Of a stretch of 64,000 nucleotides of DNA, positions 2,864-50,576 are shown in pieces (the first letter of the stretch is position 1; every line of letters starts with the position of its first letter). This DNA is from Haloplanus sp. HW8-1 (GTDB lineage Archaea; Halobacteriota; Halobacteria; Halobacteriales; Haloferacaceae). The notes under the pieces are model-generated. The model searched no databases. It saw only the letters and a program-made list of their open reading frames with translations, and had not been told where the DNA came from. The position numbers and the translations under genes were made by a program. The DNA lies in the NCBI RefSeq assembly GCF_023703795.1, contig NZ_CP098518.1:1984001-2048000 (forward strand), given 5' to 3'.

Positions 2864-3940
2864 TCAGACCGCGTAGTTCGCCACCCAGTACGCGGCGTAG
2901 GCGGCAAGCAAGAGCGCGCCTGTCGGGCGTCCCACCTTCCCGCGGTAGAAGGCGATGGCGACGATCAGTAGCGTGCCGAAAAAGAACGGCCAGTGGACGG
3001 TGACGACGGTTCCGGCCGTGTTCAGGGGCCGGACCATCGCGATCAGACCCGCGTTGGCGCTGACGAAAAAGAGCATGCTCCCCACGACGTTGCCGACGCC
3101 GATGTGGGGACGCCCCTGCCGGACGGGTTCGACCGTCAGAAACAGTTCTTCGAGCGACGCGATGAAGCTCATCACCGTCGCGCCGAAGGCGAGTCCGGTC
3201 ACGCCGAGGAGTGTCAGCAGTTCTTTGGCCCCCTCGACGGCGAGTTCGGAGCCGACCGTCATGCCCACCGCAGCGACGAGGGCGACGCCGAGAAACGCCG
3301 GTCCCTCGTATCGTTCGGGGACGTGGTCCTCCACGAGTCCGTCGACGTCGAGGTCCGGATCCACGTCCAGACCGAACCACGTCCCGTCCTCGTCCTCCCC
3401 TCGCTCGTCACTGTTTTCGGCCGTGGCCTCGCGTTCCTCCTCCATGATCTCGACGTCCTCGGCCGAGAGGTAACGGGTGTCCGTGTAGCGTTCGAGCGTG
3501 TAGATGATGCCGAGGTACGGGACGAACGTCGCGGTCAGGACGGCGCCGTCGAACCGCGAGAGCGTGCCGTCGAGGGCCAGACCGAAGAAGAGAAACGGGG
3601 CGAGCAGCGTGATGCCGAGGTAGTTGCGAGGGACGTCCGTCTCGAAGGGGACCAACACGCCGGCGAGGCCGACGGCCGCCCCGAGGATGAAGAGCGCCTC
3701 GCCGAAGACGGTGCCGAGCGCCAAGTCGGGCAACCTGTCGTACGCCGCCGCGATGCCGAGAATGACGTTCTCGAGGTCCGTCCCCGCGAGAACGACAGTC
3801 AGGAAGAACCCGGAAACGCCGAGCGCGAGTGCCCCCTCGGCGACGGCCTCGATGAACGTCTCGACGCTGACGATGACGATGACGACCCCGACCAGAAACA
3901 GCGCGACCGACACCAACTCGCCCGGCAGTCCGAGTACCAT
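2864..3940 (-). CDS. Atypical sodium/calcium exchanger (CaCA)-type membrane protein
   Basis: Integral membrane antiporter-like protein of 358 residues with about ten predicted segments and a central acidic cytoplasmic loop (roughly residues 165-210, rich in Glu/Asp). The alpha-1-like repeat reads GFFLTVVLAGTDLENVILG, and the alpha-2-like repeat reads MSFIASLEELFLTVEP then GVGNVVGSMLFF. It is clearly related to the convergent gene at 1609, sharing the T(V/I)EPVR and (H/E)IGVGNV(V/I)GS signatures, but it has no signal peptide. The start at 3940 (MVLGLPGELVSVALF) places a hydrophobic segment right at the N-terminus, and the upstream in-frame extension is Arg-rich and unlikely to be translated. 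Substrate unknown; Na+/Ca2+ or another cation. Confidence 0.8.
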   Translation of the reverse strand: MVLGLPGELVSVALFLVGVVIVIVSVETFIEAVAEGALALGVSGFFLTVVLAGTDLENVILGIAAAYDRLPDLALGTVFGEALFILGAAVGLAGVLVPFETDVPRNYLGITLLAPFLFFGLALDGTLSRFDGAVLTATFVPYLGIIYTLERYTDTRYLSAEDVEIMEEEREATAENSDERGEDEDGTWFGLDVDPDLDVDGLVEDHVPERYEGPAFLGVALVAAVGMTVGSELAVEGAKELLTLLGVTGLAFGATVMSFIASLEELFLTVEPVRQGRPHIGVGNVVGSMLFFVSANAGLIAMVRPLNTAGTVVTVHWPFFFGTLLIVAIAFYRGKVGRPTGALLLAAYAAYWVANYAV

Positions 3941-6291: not shown

Positions 6292-7677
6292 CTACTCCTC
6301 GGCGTCCTGCCGGGCGTTCAGTTTTGCCTGCTCCCTGGCGCTGGGGTTCACGGACTCCTTGAACGGCACCTCGGCGACCGTCGCGTACGCGGGTTCGCCC
6401 GCCTCCTCGGCGTACTCGTCTGGCAGGTGAACCGCGAACTCCAAGTCGAGGTTCTCCTCGTAGATCTCGTCGTTGAGGAGGGCGTCGGTCTCGGCCTGTA
6501 GCTTCTCCGCGGGGACGAAGCCCAGCCCGATGTTCGTCTCCAGATCGGGGTTCCACCACGGCGAGGTCATGTATCCACACTCCGTGCCGGTGTCCGGATC
6601 CGAGACGATCCAGAAGTCGGGGGCGTAGTCGCGGATCGGTTCGCCCGCGATCTTCAGGCCGACCATCTTGAGGTTGAACGGGTACTCCCCGTTCTCGACG
6701 AGTCGTTGCTGGCGTTCGAGTTCCGCCTTGCCGATGTAATCACCGTCCTTGTCGTTGGGGACCTGATAGCCGAGGTTGACCTGGAACGGCGAGGTCTCGT
6801 GGTCCATATCCTGTCCCCACGAGAGGATGCCCGCTGCGATACGGCGGTGGTGTCCGGGCGCGATCTGGCGGCCGCCGTGGTCCTTGACCGACTCCATCAC
6901 CGGGTCCCAGACCCGTTCGGCGTTTTCGCTCGCGTCCTTGACGTAGACCTCGAAGCCCTTCTCACCGGAGAAGCCCGTCTGACTCACCAACACCGGGCAG
7001 CCGTTGATCTCGGCGTCCATCAGCCCGTAGTAGGGGATGTCGCTGACCGCCTCGCCGACGACGTCGACCATCACGTCCTCGGACAGAGGCCCCTGAATCT
7101 GCATCGGCGCCACGTCGATCTCGTCGATCTCCACGTCGAAGTCCATGCCGACGTTGACGCCCTGAAGCCACTGCATGAGCGTCGAATCCGAGATGGAAAA
7201 CCAGAACTCGTCCTCGGCGACCCGCAGGAGGACCGGATCGTTCAGGATGCCGCCGTCCTCGTTACAGAGGATGACGTACTTGCCGGACATCGGGTCGATC
7301 TCCGTGGCATCCCGGGTGATGACGTAGTCCGTCAGCGCCTCGGCGTCCGGCCCCTTCACCCGGATCTGGCGCTCGACCGCCACGTCCCACAGCGTCACGC
7401 TCTCTGTAAGCGCCTCGTACTCCTTCATCGCGCCGCCGTCTTCGGGTTCGACCAGACCCCGCGGGTGGTAGATCCGGTTGTAGACCGTACAGCGCCACGC
7501 TCCCTCCTCGTTGAAGGACTTGTGGAAGAAGGGCGACTTCCGAACGCGGGTCGAGACGAGCATCTCGATGCCCGGGTCGCCGGTCTGTCGCAGGTTCCGT
7601 GGAAGGACACGGTCGGACTGGTCGATTTCCGGATGGTTCGGGTGGCCGTCGGGCGCGGTGGAGTCATCGTTTGTCAT
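6292..7677 (-). CDS. DmdA-like tetrahydrofolate-dependent demethylase (GcvT fold)
   Basis: Aminomethyltransferase-family protein of 461 residues, predicted to move a methyl group from a substrate to tetrahydrofolate. The N-terminus (STRVRKSPF..., WRCTVYNRIYHPRG) and the core features (VERQIRVKGPDAEAL, GGILNDPVLLRVAEDEFWF, AGILSWGQDMDHETSPFQVN) follow the DMSP demethylase DmdA pattern more closely than GcvT itself. There is a longer C-terminal tail (about residues 400-461) than in bacterial DmdA. The ATG at 7677 was chosen over the TTG two codons upstream. It leads an operon with the MTHFR-like gene and is divergent from sarcosine oxidase. From context the substrate could be DMSP, glycine betaine or another methylated osmolyte; this is inference. 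Confidence 0.85.
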   Translation of the reverse strand: MTNDDSTAPDGHPNHPEIDQSDRVLPRNLRQTGDPGIEMLVSTRVRKSPFFHKSFNEEGAWRCTVYNRIYHPRGLVEPEDGGAMKEYEALTESVTLWDVAVERQIRVKGPDAEALTDYVITRDATEIDPMSGKYVILCNEDGGILNDPVLLRVAEDEFWFSISDSTLMQWLQGVNVGMDFDVEIDEIDVAPMQIQGPLSEDVMVDVVGEAVSDIPYYGLMDAEINGCPVLVSQTGFSGEKGFEVYVKDASENAERVWDPVMESVKDHGGRQIAPGHHRRIAAGILSWGQDMDHETSPFQVNLGYQVPNDKDGDYIGKAELERQQRLVENGEYPFNLKMVGLKIAGEPIRDYAPDFWIVSDPDTGTECGYMTSPWWNPDLETNIGLGFVPAEKLQAETDALLNDEIYEENLDLEFAVHLPDEYAEEAGEPAYATVAEVPFKESVNPSAREQAKLNARQDAEE

Positions 7678-7774
7678 CGACAATTAACGCCGATCCCCAC
7701 CCGGATAAGGTTGGACCACAGCTATCTCGGATGTATAAGTACCCTCGACCGATCGCGGCCGGGGCCGGCGAGAA

Positions 7775-7800
7775 AATTAACACGTATAGTGTTGTTAATT
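7775..7800. promoter_or_regulatory. Imperfect palindrome in the divergent dmdA-like/sarcosine oxidase promoter
   Basis: The 191-base divergent intergenic region holds an A+T-rich imperfect inverted repeat with arms AATTAACA and TGTTAATT around a short centre, followed by a run of eight G. It lies about 70 bases before the sarcosine oxidase ATG and about 100 before the dmdA-like ATG. Its symmetry and position suit an operator for a dimeric regulator of both operons. No regulator gene lies adjacent, so this is an inference. A CTTATCC box at about 7708-7714 may be the TATA element of the leftward operon. Confidence 0.4.
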
Positions 7801-7868
7801 GGGGGGGGTCGCCGACCGACGGGTGACGGGACCCAAGGGTCAATACCCTCCCCTCCGAACCCCTGCGT

Positions 7869-9014
7869 ATGCGTTCGAGCGACGAGCGCCGCGACGTCAT
7901 CGTCGTCGGCGTCGGCGGCATGGGTAGTGCAACCGCGTACCACCTCGCCGAACGAGGGGTTGACGTACTGGGACTGGAGCGGTTCGACATCCCCCACACC
8001 GAGGGATCATCCCACGGGATCACCCGTATCATCCGGAGAGCGTACTACGAGCATCCCTCGTACATCCCGCTGATCGAACGGGCGTACGAACTCTGGGACG
8101 ACCTGGCCGAGGAGACGGGGCGACCGGTCATCCACCGTACCGGGTCCATCGACGCGGCCCCCCAGGGGCACGACGTCTTCGAGGGGTCGCGACGCTCCTG
8201 TGAGGAACACGACATTCCACACGAGGTGTTGACGGGGGCTGAACTGAACGAGCGGTTCCCGGGCTACGACCTCCCCGCGGAGTATCGCGCCGTCTATCAG
8301 GAGGACGGCGGGTTCGTCGTCCCCGAGCAGTCGATCGTCGGCCACGTCGAGGCCGCACAGGCCGCTGGCGCCGAGATCCGTGCTCGGGAAGGCGTCTACG
8401 ACTGGGCCCCGACGCCGGACGGCGGCGTCCGCGTCTGGACGGACAGGGACACGTACGAGGCCGACCGGCTCGTCCTCGCCGCCGGCGCCTGGAACTACAA
8501 ACTCGCCGACGCCCTCTCCGGGCTGGCCGTCCCCGAACGACAGGTGCTCGCGTGGTTCCAACCCGAGACGCCCGAACTGTTCGACCCCGATCACCTCCCG
8601 GTGTGGAACATCGAGGTCCCCGAGGGGCGCTTCTACGGCCTGCCGATCTACGACGTGCCGGGATTCAAACTGGGGAAATACCACCACCTCGACGAGTCGG
8701 TCGATCCGGACGACTACGACACCGACCCCGGACCCGCCGACGAGGTGCTCCTCCGTGACTTCACGGAGAAGTACTTCCCGCAGGCCGCCGGGCCGACGAT
8801 GCGCCTCGCGACCTGCATGTTCACGAACTCCCCCGACGAGCACTTCATCCTCGATACGCTCCCCGACCATCCGCAGGTGACCGTCGGCGCGGGCTTCTCG
8901 GGGCACGGCTTCAAGTTCGCGACCGTCATCGGCGAAATCCTCGCGGATCTGGCCGCCGACGGCGACACCGACCACCCCACCGAGATGTTCCGACTCGACC
9001 GGTTCGAATCATAA
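7869..9014 (+). CDS. Monomeric sarcosine oxidase-type FAD oxidoreductase
   Basis: Flavoprotein of 381 residues that oxidatively demethylates N-methyl amino acids such as sarcosine to glycine. The Rossmann motif GVGGMGSATAYHL is at residues 14-26. SSHGITRIIRRAYYEHPSY matches the MSOX/SolA active-site segment. TCMFTNSPDEHF carries Cys316, equivalent to the cysteine that links covalently to FAD in MSOX, and GAGFSGHGFKF near the C-terminus is also conserved. The length equals the family norm. It is 56 bases before the dimethylglycine oxidase-like gene on the same strand, consistent with sequential removal of methyl groups. N-methyltryptophan oxidase is a close alternative, but the neighbours favour sarcosine. 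Confidence 0.88.
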   Translation: MRSSDERRDVIVVGVGGMGSATAYHLAERGVDVLGLERFDIPHTEGSSHGITRIIRRAYYEHPSYIPLIERAYELWDDLAEETGRPVIHRTGSIDAAPQGHDVFEGSRRSCEEHDIPHEVLTGAELNERFPGYDLPAEYRAVYQEDGGFVVPEQSIVGHVEAAQAAGAEIRAREGVYDWAPTPDGGVRVWTDRDTYEADRLVLAAGAWNYKLADALSGLAVPERQVLAWFQPETPELFDPDHLPVWNIEVPEGRFYGLPIYDVPGFKLGKYHHLDESVDPDDYDTDPGPADEVLLRDFTEKYFPQAAGPTMRLATCMFTNSPDEHFILDTLPDHPQVTVGAGFSGHGFKFATVIGEILADLAADGDTDHPTEMFRLDRFES

Positions 9015-44714: not shown

Positions 44715-45130
44715 TGACGTCACCGAAGGACCGTTCATCGGTGGATGCAGAAGGCCGATTTACAGCCGACGAGTGGTGCTGATCCGAAGCACGTTGCGGT
44801 TGGTGAGACCGTGATTCAACTCGACGACACGCGATATTGGCCGTCCACTGCTGTCGATTCCGGCACCGACCGCCTGCTTCACGTCCATCTCTATCCGACG
44901 AAGACTACTGCGAATCCCTCGACGTTTCTCCTTGGACTCTGCGAGAAACATCGAGTCGACGATGCACTCTTTCTCGTCGCCAGTGTCCCCCGTTTGCGGA
45001 CGGCCTGCCGGCGGTATCGACTCCGATTCTAGCATGTCACACGTGGGAATCGGAGTGTCGGCAAACATCTATTTAACCGCGTAAAACGATGGAATAATCA
45101 ATTCTCGAATATATTCGACCCCGTCGAATC
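44715..45130 (+). pseudogene. IS6-type transposase relic (truncated, frameshifted)
   Basis: Reading from 44715 gives RHRRTVHRWMQKADLQPTSG then HVAVGETVIQLDDTRYW and HLYPTKTTANPSTFLLGLCE, which is the middle of an ISH14-like IS6 transposase. The stop at 45030 follows a frame loss, after which another frame continues GNRSVGKHLFNRVKRWNNQFS to about 45130, the expected C-terminal part. The N-terminal 70 residues are absent. The DDE triad is altered: Asp in VDET is a Gly (VGET). The element is inactive. The homologous and better-preserved copy is at 46660. Confidence 0.8.
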
Positions 45131-46395: not shown

Positions 46396-46659
46396 AGCGT
46401 ATCTCTGCCGTTCGCTCGGACTAGCGGACGTTCTCGGCGCTGCAGTAGCGTCCATCACGTCCTCGAACTCGCCCCCGAGAATCGCCCAGTATAGCCATTC
46501 GGATCTCAGGACGTCGCAGAACCGGTTACAGCCCGGATTCATACCAGTGCTAACGGACTTCGTTAGAAGCTCCGATTACGACGCGTGTAGAAGACTGCGA
46601 GGCCCACCTCGTGTTCAGTTAAGTGTGAAACGTGAGGCGTGGTGATTTTGTGCCGGTCT

Positions 46660-47299
46660 ATGGCAGAAATCACCCGCCTCAGCGGTGACTGCGACCGGCT
46701 CGATTTGGATTTTGTGGAGCGTCAGCGGACACCCGAGTTCGCGATGCGGCTCGGTATTCAGATGCACGTGGCAGGACTATCACTTTCGAATACCATCTCG
46801 ATTCTTGAGAGGTTGGGTGTCGAACGCTCTCGAACAGCCGTCCACAACTGGGTGCAGAAGGCCGATCTACAGCCCGAAGACGGTGCAAGCCTGAATCACG
46901 TTGCGCTTGACGAAACCGTGATTCGAATCAACGATCAACAATACTGGCTGTATGCCGCTATCGATCCTGAAACGAACAAATTCCTTCATATCCGGCTCTT
47001 TTAGCACGTATACGACCGGTCTAACCGAAATCTCCCTGAGTGAATTACGTGAGAAACACGACGTCGAAACCGCTGTGTTTCTCGTCGACGATGCTCAGTG
47101 GCTCAAAACTGCCCTCGACCGACACGGCCTCGATTGCAGATACGAAATCCATGGCAATCGGAATGCCGTCGAACGTGTCTTTAGAGAAGTAAAATGACAA
47201 ACCTTTTTGTTTTCAAATACGTTTAGTCACGTGGAGCCGACGACAGCAGAATCGTGGCTCCAAGCCCTCGCTGTCTGGTGGAATCGATGCCAAAGTTAA
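46660..47299 (+). pseudogene. IS6-type transposase relic (frameshift plus in-frame stop)
   Basis: A nearly full-length ISH14-like transposase. The first frame (46660-47004) gives FVERQRTPEFAMRLGIQMHV, VHNWVQKADLQPEDG, then VALDETVIRINDQQYWLYAA and ends RLF at a frameshift. The frame then continues LTEISLSELREKHDVETAVF, DDAQWLKTALDRHG and GNRNAVERVFREVK, and hits TGA at 47195, after which QTFLFSNTFSHVEPTTAESW continues to the true stop at 47297. Both lesions destroy the gene. First catalytic Asp of the DDE set is intact in this copy. No clear terminal inverted repeat was identified. Confidence 0.85.
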
Positions 47300-47326
47300 C
47301 ACGACCTGTCGCAAGACACAGGCCTG

Positions 47327-47855
47327 GTGAAAATCTATGTGCCGATGAGCCACAAGGAGACGTGGCAGCAAGAAGCGGACGAGAAAAATTATAAGAGTAC
47401 TAGTAAGTACCTGCACGAACTGATCCAAGAGGCCCGGGCGATCAGGGAGGAAGGTTTCCTCGCGCCCCAGGGCAGCGATCAGGAAGTTCAGCGACTCAAG
47501 AAGAAAATCGAGGAGTTGGAGGACCGACCGGTACAGGCGAACCAGCAGAACAGGGATTCGGTGACGATTGACGACGCGGCGTTCTTGAAGCAGTTTCTCA
47601 CTGAGGAGTACCAGACTTTCGACTATAGTAGCGTTTGGAACTGTTTGCACACCTGATCGCCAGACTGCGTGCGATCAGGTGTGCGATGACTTACAAAGGC
47701 TACTATAGCTTCTACAGCAGATCGTCGAGAGCGACACGGTAGATGAATTGCTTAGGGAGCCTGTCGAGGACGAGTTGTATTTCTTGGCGGCACGCGAGGA
47801 GGTCACGTTTGAGCACGGTCACGGGTGGCGGCTGGCCAGCGGAGGTGAGGAGTGA
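47327..47855 (+). pseudogene. Recombinase-partner gene split by a palindromic insertion
   Basis: The 5' part (GTG start at 47327) encodes KIYVPMSHKETWQQEADEKN, YLHELIQEARAIREEGFL and a Glu/Lys coiled coil, a haloarchaeal protein that normally precedes a phage-type integrase. After FLTEEYQTFD the frame meets stop codons inside an 86-base insertion. After it the frame resumes with LLQQIVESDTVDELLREPVE and ends GHGWRLASGGEE, with its stop overlapping the recombinase start (TGATG). The gene is therefore broken in this genome, while the downstream recombinase is intact. The coupling suggests the two proteins once worked together. Confidence 0.75.
47623..47708. mobile_element. MITE-like palindromic insertion
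   Basis: 86 bases that read CTATAGTAGC...GCTACTATAG at the ends and ACACCTGATCG...CGATCAGGTGT towards the centre. The arms are about 37 bases with a handful of mismatches and a small loop. No coding capacity. No clear target duplication was found around it. It fits a non-autonomous insertion mobilised by a haloarchaeal transposase with similar ends, though no such transposase is in the window. Confidence 0.7.
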
Positions 47856-48787
47856 TGGCCGACGACTGGTACGAGACGGTCTATGAGAACAAGCACGACG
47901 CGATCAACGACTTCATCAAGCAGAAGCAGACGACTGGCCGCAGTCCACGAACGTTGAACGAGTACAGTCGGGTGCTCAAACGGTACTATCACGAGCACTT
48001 CCCCGATCTCACACCGGAGGAGACGGAGGTGCGGCACATCGAGGGGTATCTGCGTATCCTGGACGACCGGGGCGTGAGTCAGAACACGAAGCGTCGCTAC
48101 CTCGAATCGTTGTCGGCGTTCTTCAGCTACGCGATGAAACGCCCCAGGTTCGAAGAGATCACGGGGAATCCGGCAGGTGTGGTGTTGGAGGAGATTCCGA
48201 AGCAGATCCGGGAGCGACCGGACTGTGCGACGTGGGAGAACGCGAAGAAGATCGTGAAGGCGATCCCGGATCCGAGGAACAAGGCTGTCGTCGTTTTACT
48301 GGCGAAAACCGGGTGTCGGTTGGGGGAAACCCTGGAGATCAAGACGGACGACTTGATGCTCGGCGACGGATTTGTTCGTCTTCGAGAGCGGAAGGGTGGG
48401 AAGCAGACGGTGGTTCCGATCGATCGTGAGACGGTTCGGACGATCCGGCGGTTCAAACTGATTCGTCGGGACACCGACTTGGACTACCTCTTCGTGAGTA
48501 TCCGTGACGATCGGCTGACGAAGACGGCGATCCAGCGTGCGGTGCGGCAGGCTGCGATCAGCGAGGGTGTTATCGACGACGGCGAGGATCGGTTTCACAA
48601 GAAGTTCACGCCACACACGTTTCGGACGGTGTTCACGACGTTGATGCGGAATCAAGGGATGAAGCAGCACGTCCTCCAGTACATCCGTGGGGATGCGGAA
48701 AGCGAGACGATGGACATCTACACGCGGGTCGACAGAGACGACGCACGAGAGGGGTATCTGGACTGCATCAAGCCACTGGGCTTGTAG
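47855..48787 (+). CDS. Tyrosine recombinase/integrase
   Basis: Site-specific recombinase of 310 residues. N-terminal SAM-like DNA-binding domain (about 10-110; RSPRTLNEYSRVLKRYYHEH) and catalytic domain with R155 in TGCRLGETLEI, Lys near 183, H254-x-x-R257 (HTFRTVF) and nucleophile Y289 (DIYTRV). The box I/II set is complete, so it could be active. ATG 47855 overlaps the TGA of the split upstream gene. Phage or plasmid type in origin. No tRNA or direct attachment repeat was recognised near it, so the borders of the integrated element are unclear. Confidence 0.9.
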   Translation: MADDWYETVYENKHDAINDFIKQKQTTGRSPRTLNEYSRVLKRYYHEHFPDLTPEETEVRHIEGYLRILDDRGVSQNTKRRYLESLSAFFSYAMKRPRFEEITGNPAGVVLEEIPKQIRERPDCATWENAKKIVKAIPDPRNKAVVVLLAKTGCRLGETLEIKTDDLMLGDGFVRLRERKGGKQTVVPIDRETVRTIRRFKLIRRDTDLDYLFVSIRDDRLTKTAIQRAVRQAAISEGVIDDGEDRFHKKFTPHTFRTVFTTLMRNQGMKQHVLQYIRGDAESETMDIYTRVDRDDAREGYLDCIKPLGL

Positions 48788-48810
48788 CTACGCGGATTCG
48801 GACGTAAAGC

Positions 48811-49074
48811 TCAGGGCGGGAGGTGTCGGTCGTAGATGTTCCGGCGGTGCCCGACGGCTTCGACGATCAGGCAGTCGTCTTCCCGATTCCACGTGATGAT
48901 CGCGCGGTAGTCGCCAGCTCGGAGTTTGTAGTAGGGGTAGCCGGTCAGTTTCTCCAGTCGGTGGGAAGTCCAGTCTTTCGCCTCGTCGAGTTTCTTCACC
49001 AGTCGCTCTTGGGCTTCGGTGTCGAGTCCTTCCAGTAAATCGAGTGCTTTCGGCGTCCCCTCGACCTCAGTCAT
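48811..49074 (-). CDS. RelE/ParE-type toxin
   Basis: Protein of 87 residues. ALDLLEGLDTEAQERLVKKL, then RLEKLTGYPYYKLRAGDYRA and IITWNREDDCLIVEAVGHRR, is the fold of RelE/ParE toxins, including the YRAIITW strand and the basic C-terminal end. It overlaps its antitoxin gene by eight bases and follows it on the same strand. RelE types cleave mRNA at the ribosome and ParE types poison gyrase; sequence alone does not decide between these. It converges on the recombinase gene. Confidence 0.85.
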   Translation of the reverse strand: MTEVEGTPKALDLLEGLDTEAQERLVKKLDEAKDWTSHRLEKLTGYPYYKLRAGDYRAIITWNREDDCLIVEAVGHRRNIYDRHLPP

Positions 49075-49345
49075 CGATGTCGAGTCGTTCCTTCACGTCT
49101 GCCTGGGACACCGTTTCGCCGTCGTCGCGTTGCTCGCGGCTCTCTGCGAGATGTTCCAGTGCCTCCTCGGAGAGTTGCATCGGCGGTTCGACGGCGTCGC
49201 GGAGCGCGTCGCGGATGAACTCGGACTTGTTCGCGTATCCGCGTTCCTCCCACGCGTCGTCGATGTCGGCGAGCAGCGTCTTCGGCACGCGGACGTTGAT
49301 CTTCTCCATCTCGCCGTCGGTACCGGCGTCGCTGTCGGTGCTCAT
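49067..49345 (-). CDS. Ribbon-helix-helix antitoxin
   Basis: Protein of 92 residues. Residues about 14-50 (EKINVRVPKTLLADIDDAWE then SEFIRDALRDAVE) form a ribbon-helix-helix DNA-binding domain; the acidic C-terminal part would wrap the toxin. ATG 49345 is used. Directly upstream is a palindrome (49350-49369) fitting autoregulation by the dimer. The gene leads a two-gene toxin-antitoxin operon, typical cargo of mobile regions. Confidence 0.85.
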   Translation of the reverse strand: MSTDSDAGTDGEMEKINVRVPKTLLADIDDAWEERGYANKSEFIRDALRDAVEPPMQLSEEALEHLAESREQRDDGETVSQADVKERLDIDD

Positions 49346-49349
49346 GTGC

Positions 49350-49369
49350 TGTGATACGACTGTATCACA
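49350..49369. promoter_or_regulatory. Palindromic operator of the toxin-antitoxin operon
   Basis: TGTGATACGACTGTATCACA has perfect 8-base arms around GACT, ending five bases upstream of the antitoxin ATG. RHH antitoxins bind such palindromes and repress their own operon. The symmetry is directly visible. Confidence 0.6.
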
Positions 49370-49595
49370 CAAGAAGGTTCGCACAAGGAACGAGTGAAAT
49401 CAGTATGCACAGACCATAGGTGTTGAGCCCGAAGAGGTAGATGTCGAGTGCTGGATGGAAGATGATAATAAGGGGCCGAGTACTTCGGCAGTGTTTACAG
49501 CTACGTGTGATTTTAGTTGAGAGATAGGTAACTCCGCCTACGAATTAGTGGAGTTTCCCTACTTTTTGTTATCATCGTCACCCCTTGTAAGCACG

Positions 49596-50280: not shown

Positions 50281-50576
50281 TCATAGATTTTTCAGGGTAT
50301 TATTTGCCTCTCTAGGGTATATTTAGGAATGAGACCCCCAGATCGAAGCAGTGTGAGATCAGAGAACTCCCTCTTATTGTATTATTGACCGGAAAAGTGC
50401 CAACAAAAATTACTCTAGCTGCTGTTCTGGAAGTTATGGGACGAATGACGGTACCACTTCGAAAGGCCTCGGCACTCATAGGGCTCGTCGTCGCCGGGTG
50501 CCACCCCGACTCGGAGCGGTGCCCTCGTCATCGGCCATCCGGTCCTACGCCCCGACGGCGAAAAGAGGCTTGCGCC
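50281..50576. other. Gene-free end of the mobile region
   Basis: 296 bases. The first 130 are A+T-rich with stop codons in all frames, like the preceding lipoprotein; the rest returns to host base composition near 50430, which may mark the border of imported DNA. No attachment repeat or tRNA was seen. Confidence 0.45.

Follow-up and report, generated by a model that had tools for sequence, protein, structure and literature searches.

The interrupted gene upstream of a tyrosine recombinase

The genome of Haloplanus sp. HW8-1 raises the question of what a short palindrome is doing inside a gene that runs into a tyrosine recombinase, and whether its arrival broke that gene. The stretch of 64,000 nucleotides that we analysed (hereafter the window; positions 1,984,001 to 2,048,000 of NZ_CP098518.1) lies on a contig of 3.5 Mb, within a genome totalling 3.84 Mb. 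An initial annotation, made from the letters alone, had described an 86-base MITE-like palindrome (47623-47708, no strand assigned) that recently split a coiled-coil protein gene and left the recombinase without its partner. The structural part of this description held. The palindrome is made of two arms of 38 nt each (47623-47660 and 47671-47708), 84% complementary and separated by a 10-nt loop, and its predicted fold reaches -28.9 kcal/mol, compared with -8.8 +/- 2.2 for shuffled versions (z = -9.0; 0/200 shuffles equal). The alignment with 12 relatives, namely the recombinase relatives found in named genomes, makes both halves of the gene recognisable on the forward strand: a 5' fragment at 47307-47622, which has lost its start codon, and a 3' fragment at 47709-47855. 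The TGA of the latter (47853-47855) overlaps the recombinase ATG at 47855 by 1 nt, as had been noticed before.

The reading frame originally reported for this gene, from a GTG at 47327, is incomplete. In the four closest relatives (L009-L012), the gene starts farther upstream, and homology with the relatives begins at 47307. The original start has been replaced in the window by a relic of the IS6 family (46609-47306, forward strand), which has a broken transposase frame and abuts the truncated gene. This relic matches the NCBIfam IS6 transposase model under its cut-off (E = 4e-28, profile positions 1-101 of 202). Among the 12 plasmid matches listed, homology with IS6-family sequences stops at 47304-47312 for 11, and at 47278 for the other. 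The longest plasmid match displayed 80.4% identity, and 9/150 records fell between 80 and 90%, with none higher. A second IS6-like transposase fragment was read in translation at 44745-45032, and the two relics flank a gene at 45.3-46.4 kb.

The product of the interrupted gene gave nothing firm in Pfam, PHROGs, or NCBIfam, nor in a profile search of the PDB (best E 0.005). Its structural model is poor (pLDDT 65, pTM 0.35) and its fold matches are weak (best E 0.066), with winged-helix regulators mostly near the top. Going by this low-confidence model, the accessory protein may combine RHH-like, coiled-coil, and winged-helix-like parts. The recombinase (47855-48787, forward strand) keeps an intact frame, with a PF00589 domain (4e-25) preceded by SAM-like N-terminal domains (Phage_int_SAM). 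The catalytic residues of tyrosine recombinases (R, K, HxxR, and Y) are all present, in agreement with the initial annotation, and a position often occupied by H or W in tyrosine recombinases is D. This D is found in the window and in all 12 aligned relatives, and is thus a family trait.

The palindrome is a mobile element with TA at nearly all alignable targets

The palindrome is absent from the equivalent site in 12/12 relatives, all of which carry the coiled-coil gene upstream of the recombinase. The uninterrupted allele therefore exists; a palindrome present in all homologues would, according to the initial annotation, have been a natural part of the gene region. Among the 391 genomes of the class, the match extends over the upstream half of the gene in only four others (G137, G239, G252, and G319), and these also lack the palindrome (G137 and G319, which are arranged like L009 and L012, probably represent the same species). 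Meanwhile, other copies are abundant. The window genome holds the palindrome at 27 full-length places (BLAST, at least 80 of 86 positions aligned), and a pattern search added four inverted pairs of terminal repeats with the same spacing. One further copy is 100% identical over 86 nt and another is 100% identical over 85 nt, and the former fits the recent activity that had been proposed. Outside this genome, the element was detected in 14/59 other genomes of the genus, family, and order (E <= 1e-6), including 9/11 congeners, and in plasmids, where 45 records held similar repeats that spanned most of the length in 42 (E <= 1). The palindrome is a mobile element, multicopy and transposase-free, as the name MITE requires. 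In one congener (G003:C1:840940-844025), two inverted copies, each 99% identical to that of the window, lie about 3 kb apart, and a different IS630 element with a 311-aa frame (L224) sits between them.

The way in which the element inserts was read from empty sites. At seven other sites, the filled copy was compared with 25 empty versions, the flanks being joined by separate matches. Exactly four letters lay between the flanks in 11/25 empty versions, and 10 of these 11, from four sites, have TA in the middle (CTAG 4, TTAG 3, CTAA 1, ATAG 1, and ATAA 1). The exception is L092, at the site of L021, which reads GTTC and has a right flank poorly alignable at the junction. TA was also present in four empty versions with a small length change (L073, L081, L097, and L100), adding two sites, while 10/25 were set aside for longer gaps or overlaps. 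For 4 of the ten sites compared (L005, L007, L023, and L028), an empty site was not found.

The ends of the copies tell the same story. We examined 166 ends from 83 distinct copies, after dropping 7 loci as duplicates and 5 for a length other than 86. Of the ten terminal bases, the outermost varies most: it is C in 140/166 ends and otherwise A, G, or T, and differs even between copies otherwise 98-99% identical (L046 and L047). The next two bases are T and A, at 156 and 162 of the 166 ends, respectively. A variable outer base next to a constant TA suggests that the outer C and G are target and that TA is a duplication, and the four-letter empty targets suggest that the usual net gain is 82 bp, with the outer C, TA, and G belonging to the target. 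The simplest reading is a duplication of TA at a preferred CTAG by an element of 80 bp. Under this reading, the 86 bases would consist of the target C, a left TA (47624-47625), the MITE proper (47626-47705, TAGTAGC...GCTACTA), a right TA (47706-47707), and the target G.

Identical letters would result if 82 bp had been inserted bluntly between CT and AG. We prefer TA duplication because the outer base varies and because IS630 is known to behave in this way. Taken together, the empty targets, the terminal TA, and the variable outer base are those expected of an IS630-type MITE. IS630 reportedly prefers CTAG, going by the title of a 1991 paper by Tenzen and Ohtsubo; in the window, CTAG is rare, with 24 occurrences observed and 51 expected from trinucleotides. 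ISY100, another member of the IS630 family, is described in the available text of PMC2170065 as inserting almost only at TA, which is duplicated, with 2/39 products inserted at AA/TT and duplicating AA/TT instead, indicating that the TA requirement is not absolute. We also considered a general targeting of stop codons by the MITE, and evidence for this was weak: when an open frame was required over the 45 codons that lead to the target, the frame in which TAG is a codon was open on 82 of 176 sides, and the two others on 71 and 56.

A candidate source of transposase in two congeners

The initial annotation had suggested a search for a transposase with the ends of the palindrome. Such a transposase exists in two congeners. 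In the window genome, a search by catalytic domain revealed no IS630 element with these ends, and both DDE_3 (IS630-type) elements carry other ones. Searches of the window genome with the patterns CTATAGTAGCGNTTG (2 mismatches) and CTATAGTAGC returned MITE pairs and single sites, and no pair at the distance expected of an IS. The congeneric IS630-family elements with MITE-like ends (CTATAGTA...) are found in G003 (5 copies) and G002 (1 copy), as a unit of 1061 nt, flanking letters included. Their left ends read TATAGTAACCG or TATAGTAGTCG and their right ends CTACTATAG, and the elements share the terminal pattern (C/T/A)TATAGTA. At the left end, the outer base is C four times, and otherwise T and A, varying as it does in the MITE. 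The genome of G003 also holds many MITE copies with similar scores.

Similarity extends beyond the terminal motif. Eight end comparisons were made, uncorrected, of which six were better than shuffles. The inner 23 nt of the right MITE end matched the right end of the IS with p values of 0.0004 (the best of the 8) and 0.004. Beyond the first nine letters, the left MITE end matched the left end of the IS (p 0.009 and 0.007) and its right end (p 0.004 and 0.02), while the right MITE end against the left end of the IS gave p 0.06 and 0.12. These comparisons covered the G003 and G002 type, leaving out the other congeneric IS630-type elements L217 (G009), L218 (G007), L220 (G009), and L234 (G003). 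By its TATAGTA ends and the inner similarity of the right end, the palindrome thus has inverted ends that match an autonomous IS630 element. The type found in G003 and G002 is likely to be the source of transposase for the MITE, and would have acted in the window genome in trans.

Other explanations for the palindrome have to be weighed against this one. The closest description that we found is the SMR class of Haloquadratum, which, in the available text of PMC3119063, comprises repeats with terminal repeats, no target duplication, and an unknown mobilisation. An SMR would suit the size (HqIRS41 has 80 bp), the kind of host, and the lack of a flanking repeat obvious at first sight. Nevertheless, CTATAG appears to conceal a duplication of TA, and there is an IS whose ends match, although SMR ends should be unrelated to transposons; we regard this assignment as improbable. 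A fixed regulatory or structural element without mobility, such as a terminator or a REP-like sequence, would explain the very stable hairpin, and also the slight and unconvincing excess of TAG in frame at the copies. Yet the absence of the palindrome from all 12 relatives and the pairs of filled and empty sites elsewhere refute it as the sole explanation, and we give it next to no credence. Hence, the IS630-type MITE remains the preferred reading.

Compared to known systems, the element resembles the MITEs of the IS630/Tc1-mariner group (ISY100, IS630) in its insertion at TA with duplication, in inverted ends common with a full IS, and in its preference for CTAG. It differs from these in having only 80 bp, almost all in one hairpin, in being haloarchaeal, and in that its partner IS is found in congeners only. 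The SMRs, PATEs, and MITEs of Haloquadratum are likewise short, numerous, transposase-free, and haloarchaeal, as far as the available parts of PMC3119063 describe them. There, SMRs are presented with neither target duplication nor transposon match, whereas both occur here, and PATEs are presented as devoid of inverted ends, unlike the present element, whose 38-nt arms reach out to its extreme ends. An IS630-linked MITE in haloarchaea was not among the literature matches listed. The insertion is an event of an ordinary kind, by an IS630-type MITE, and the MITE family itself was not found described in the literature searched. A short haloarchaeal repeat that seems free of duplication thereby gains a concrete mechanism and a candidate transposase, and this mechanism may help with other short repeats that have been called enigmatic.

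The gene was probably dead before the element arrived

The rule for the target has consequences for the order of events. At the insertion point, the four closest relatives read TTC GAC GAA/GAG, followed by codons for V or I and for leucine, and then by CAG or CGC. In the window, TTC GAC precedes the MITE and CTT CTA CAG follows it. Duplication of TA alone leaves exactly TAG between GAC and CTT CTA CAG, with the frame of the relatives kept, so that the gene would have carried an in-frame stop before the MITE. All 12 relatives have sense codons at this point, with neither TAG nor TA, and the TAG that we infer is one letter off the codon of L012 at the equivalent position. Since TAG occurs in none of the relatives and the window genome's own pre-insertion sequence is unseen, the prior stop rests on the target rule. 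On these grounds, an in-frame TAG very probably preceded the MITE, and this mutation would also have made the CTAG that the transposase prefers.

The loss of the start codon fits in the same order. The IS6 event is likely the oldest lesion, and the most plausible place for the MITE is at the end of the series, in a gene already dead, as the TAG stop was very probably present and the start had been lost to the IS6 relic. The claim that the MITE broke the gene is therefore not supported and probably wrong. As for the recombinase being left without its partner, the partner has indeed been lost, but the MITE as the cause of this loss is unsupported. As we read it, the insertion is less the cause of the damage than a sign of a nonsense mutation, in which a stop codon made a rare CTAG.

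An alternative is that the gene was intact until the MITE entered and that the MITE alone broke it. This would agree with a gene that is open in 12/12 relatives, with another MITE copy identical to that of the window, with the one empty target without TA (L092), and with the divergence of the fragments, which is similar to that of intact relatives. The left fragment has 2 nonsynonymous and 5 synonymous private changes, as few as in the relatives, and the right fragment has 5 nonsynonymous to 4 synonymous, versus 6 to 11 pooled. Changes of this kind in the left fragment give no clear sign from selection of an old death. Nonetheless, TA was found in 10/11 four-letter empty targets while the sense codons of the relatives supply none at the insertion point, and an IS6 relic, by now decayed in its turn, had already taken the place of the start codon. 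We consider an intact gene at the time of insertion unlikely, though less so than the alternatives for the palindrome itself.

Based on these findings, we postulate that an 80-bp IS630-type MITE entered an already dead accessory gene of an integrase module, itself left from an element integrated at the sR-tMet gene described below, a scenario that we hold to be probable. Before the MITE, an IS6-family event would have removed the start codon of the accessory gene together with the left attachment site, and an in-frame codon would have mutated to TAG, creating the CTAG target. An IS630-family transposase would then have inserted the 80-bp MITE in trans at the TA within CTAG, and TA would have been duplicated to give CTATAG at both ends, with a net gain of 82 bp. 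The module would be part of an integrative element that had entered the 3' end of sR-tMet, and of this element only the right end (50465-50477) remains.

There are hints that the recombinase itself is decaying too. It carries an excess of private nonsynonymous changes (15 nonsynonymous to 21 synonymous, compared to 17 to 71 in four relatives pooled; Fisher p = 0.013, uncorrected).

A guide-RNA gene as the probable attachment site of the recombinase family

Downstream of the recombinase are, on the reverse strand, genes of a ParE-like toxin and an RHH antitoxin (48811-49384; PF05016 8e-7 and PF01402 1e-5), which lie between it and an att-like core of 13 nt, GGCCTCGGCACTC (50465-50477, no strand assigned). 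This core is the 3' end of a full-length gene of the C/D-box sRNA sR-tMet (50465-50536, reverse strand; Rfam RF02163, 74.9 bits, model positions 1-72), a guide RNA whose target is Cm34 of tRNA-Met. The exact core also occurs upstream of the accessory gene in 8/12 named loci (L009-L016). Exact copies stand on both sides in L010, separated by 4.65 kb, and in L012, separated by 3.2 kb, while the right copy of L014 has one mismatch; the downstream core of these three is the 3' end of an sR-tMet gene each time. In L017 and L018, sR-tMet lies downstream and the core is not found upstream. The window keeps the right copy only, with no second exact core and a one-mismatch copy at 145, which suggests that the left core is gone, presumably with the IS6 junction. 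Neither the window nor the 12 loci displayed a tRNA gene as attachment site.

A wider sample pointed in the same direction. Among 29 further loci, some of which are of the same species as the 12 named ones, 13 have the exact core no more than 1.2 kb upstream of the recombinase, in most cases at a distance of 584-627 nt. Allowing one mismatch, it was present in 14/29, and allowing two, in 15/29, with 0/29 for a control of reversed letters. The other 14/29 loci yielded no upstream core at up to two mismatches, so that in other subfamilies the left site may have diverged or be a different one.

The recombinase is present in 35/391 genomes of the class, from 23/86 genera, the window genome included, and is not fixed in the lineage. 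sR-tMet was detected in all 44 genomes searched, in one copy each except for two in G022, and under the cut-off in G203. Of the 35 recombinase genomes, 31 have sR-tMet on the same contig as the recombinase, with 21/35 within 10 kb and 27/35 within 50 kb, while chance, judged from genome size alone, would place under 1% within 10 kb. The 3' end of sR-tMet faces the recombinase in 27/27 linked genomes. In three genomes (G009, G075, and G386) the recombinase adjoins sR-tMet and reads away from it. The distant exceptions are G027 (95 kb), G268 (276 kb), G061 (512 kb), and G313, where the two lie at opposite contig ends and are perhaps adjacent if the contig is circular. In 4/35 genomes, the recombinase is on another contig, and the one in G170 has the coordinates of plasmid match H21.

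The proximity to sR-tMet might also be inherited synteny of a chromosomal resolvase of the XerA type, as the best NCBIfam match of the recombinase is the archaeal XerA. However, its score of 202.4 bits is under the cut-off of 220 for this curated equivalog model, its distribution is patchy, the 27 linked genomes place it at anything between 0.1 and 49 kb from sR-tMet, and a 13-nt repeat brackets the elements. We therefore deem a resolvase in inherited synteny very unlikely. The recombinase family is, by this genomic association, tied to the sR-tMet gene, and the linkage suggests that the recombinase itself performs the integration.

Collectively, these data indicate, in all likelihood, that a widespread family of haloarchaeal tyrosine integrases, together with an overlapping partner (RHH-like, coiled-coil, and winged-helix-like), has its attachment site at the 3' end of sR-tMet. 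Integration would re-create the end of the sRNA, as other integrases do at tRNAs, and several kinds of elements would pile up at this site. The element of the window would be one that is decaying, through loss to IS6, a nonsense mutation, and a MITE in the stop codon. We found no report of sR-tMet as an attachment site in a literature search that subscription journals mostly fell outside of, which is not proof of novelty. Among the matches listed, sR-tMet occurred in one paper, a review of tRNA methylation. A review of archaeal tyrosine recombinases (PMC8371274) gives tRNA genes, intergenic regions, and protein-coding genes as sites, and its available text does not contain the terms snoRNA and sRNA.

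The module has two counterparts in that review, both taken from its available text. By its description, the haloarchaeal tyrosine integrase of SNJ2 likewise lies beside a small coiled-coil helper gene, with a MarR-like helper in addition (PMC8371274). In our case, a single upstream gene overlaps the integrase and has RHH-like, coiled-coil, and winged-helix-like parts according to a low-confidence model, and the att-like core lies at a C/D-box sRNA and not at a tRNA. Integration at the 3' end of tRNAs is alike in that a conserved RNA gene provides a short core with its 3' end and stays whole beside the element, while the target here is the sR-tMet C/D-box sRNA, which is not named among the sites in the available text of PMC8371274. 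A small guide-RNA gene that serves as a hotspot of integration in haloarchaea would allow the ends of elements to be mapped across many genomes together. An integrase family tied to such a gene is a more interesting result than the insertion itself.

The surroundings of sR-tMet are consistent with repeated use of the site. The sequence past the 3' end of the sRNA recurs, as AGCTTTCTATCCATAC, in L192, L195, and L207, and nearly so in L186 and L198, and L009 and L015 carry an almost identical sequence on the left side of the core. Such recurring ends beside sR-tMet (L009-L018 and L185-L214) suggest tandem elements that share the site, that is, accretion. The module is common to L009, L010, L011, and L012 over about 1.5 kb, beyond which only L010 and L012 are alike, over 2.9 kb. 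In L013, two att cores lie in inverted orientation around the module, at 3374 and 5100. L014 has its own recombinase, about 72% identical to that of the window, and in addition its positions 7168-8061 correspond at 87% to 48572-49469 of the window, holding in inverted orientation the end of a window-type recombinase gene and the toxin-antitoxin region. We read this inverted piece as what is left of a second element that occupied this site.
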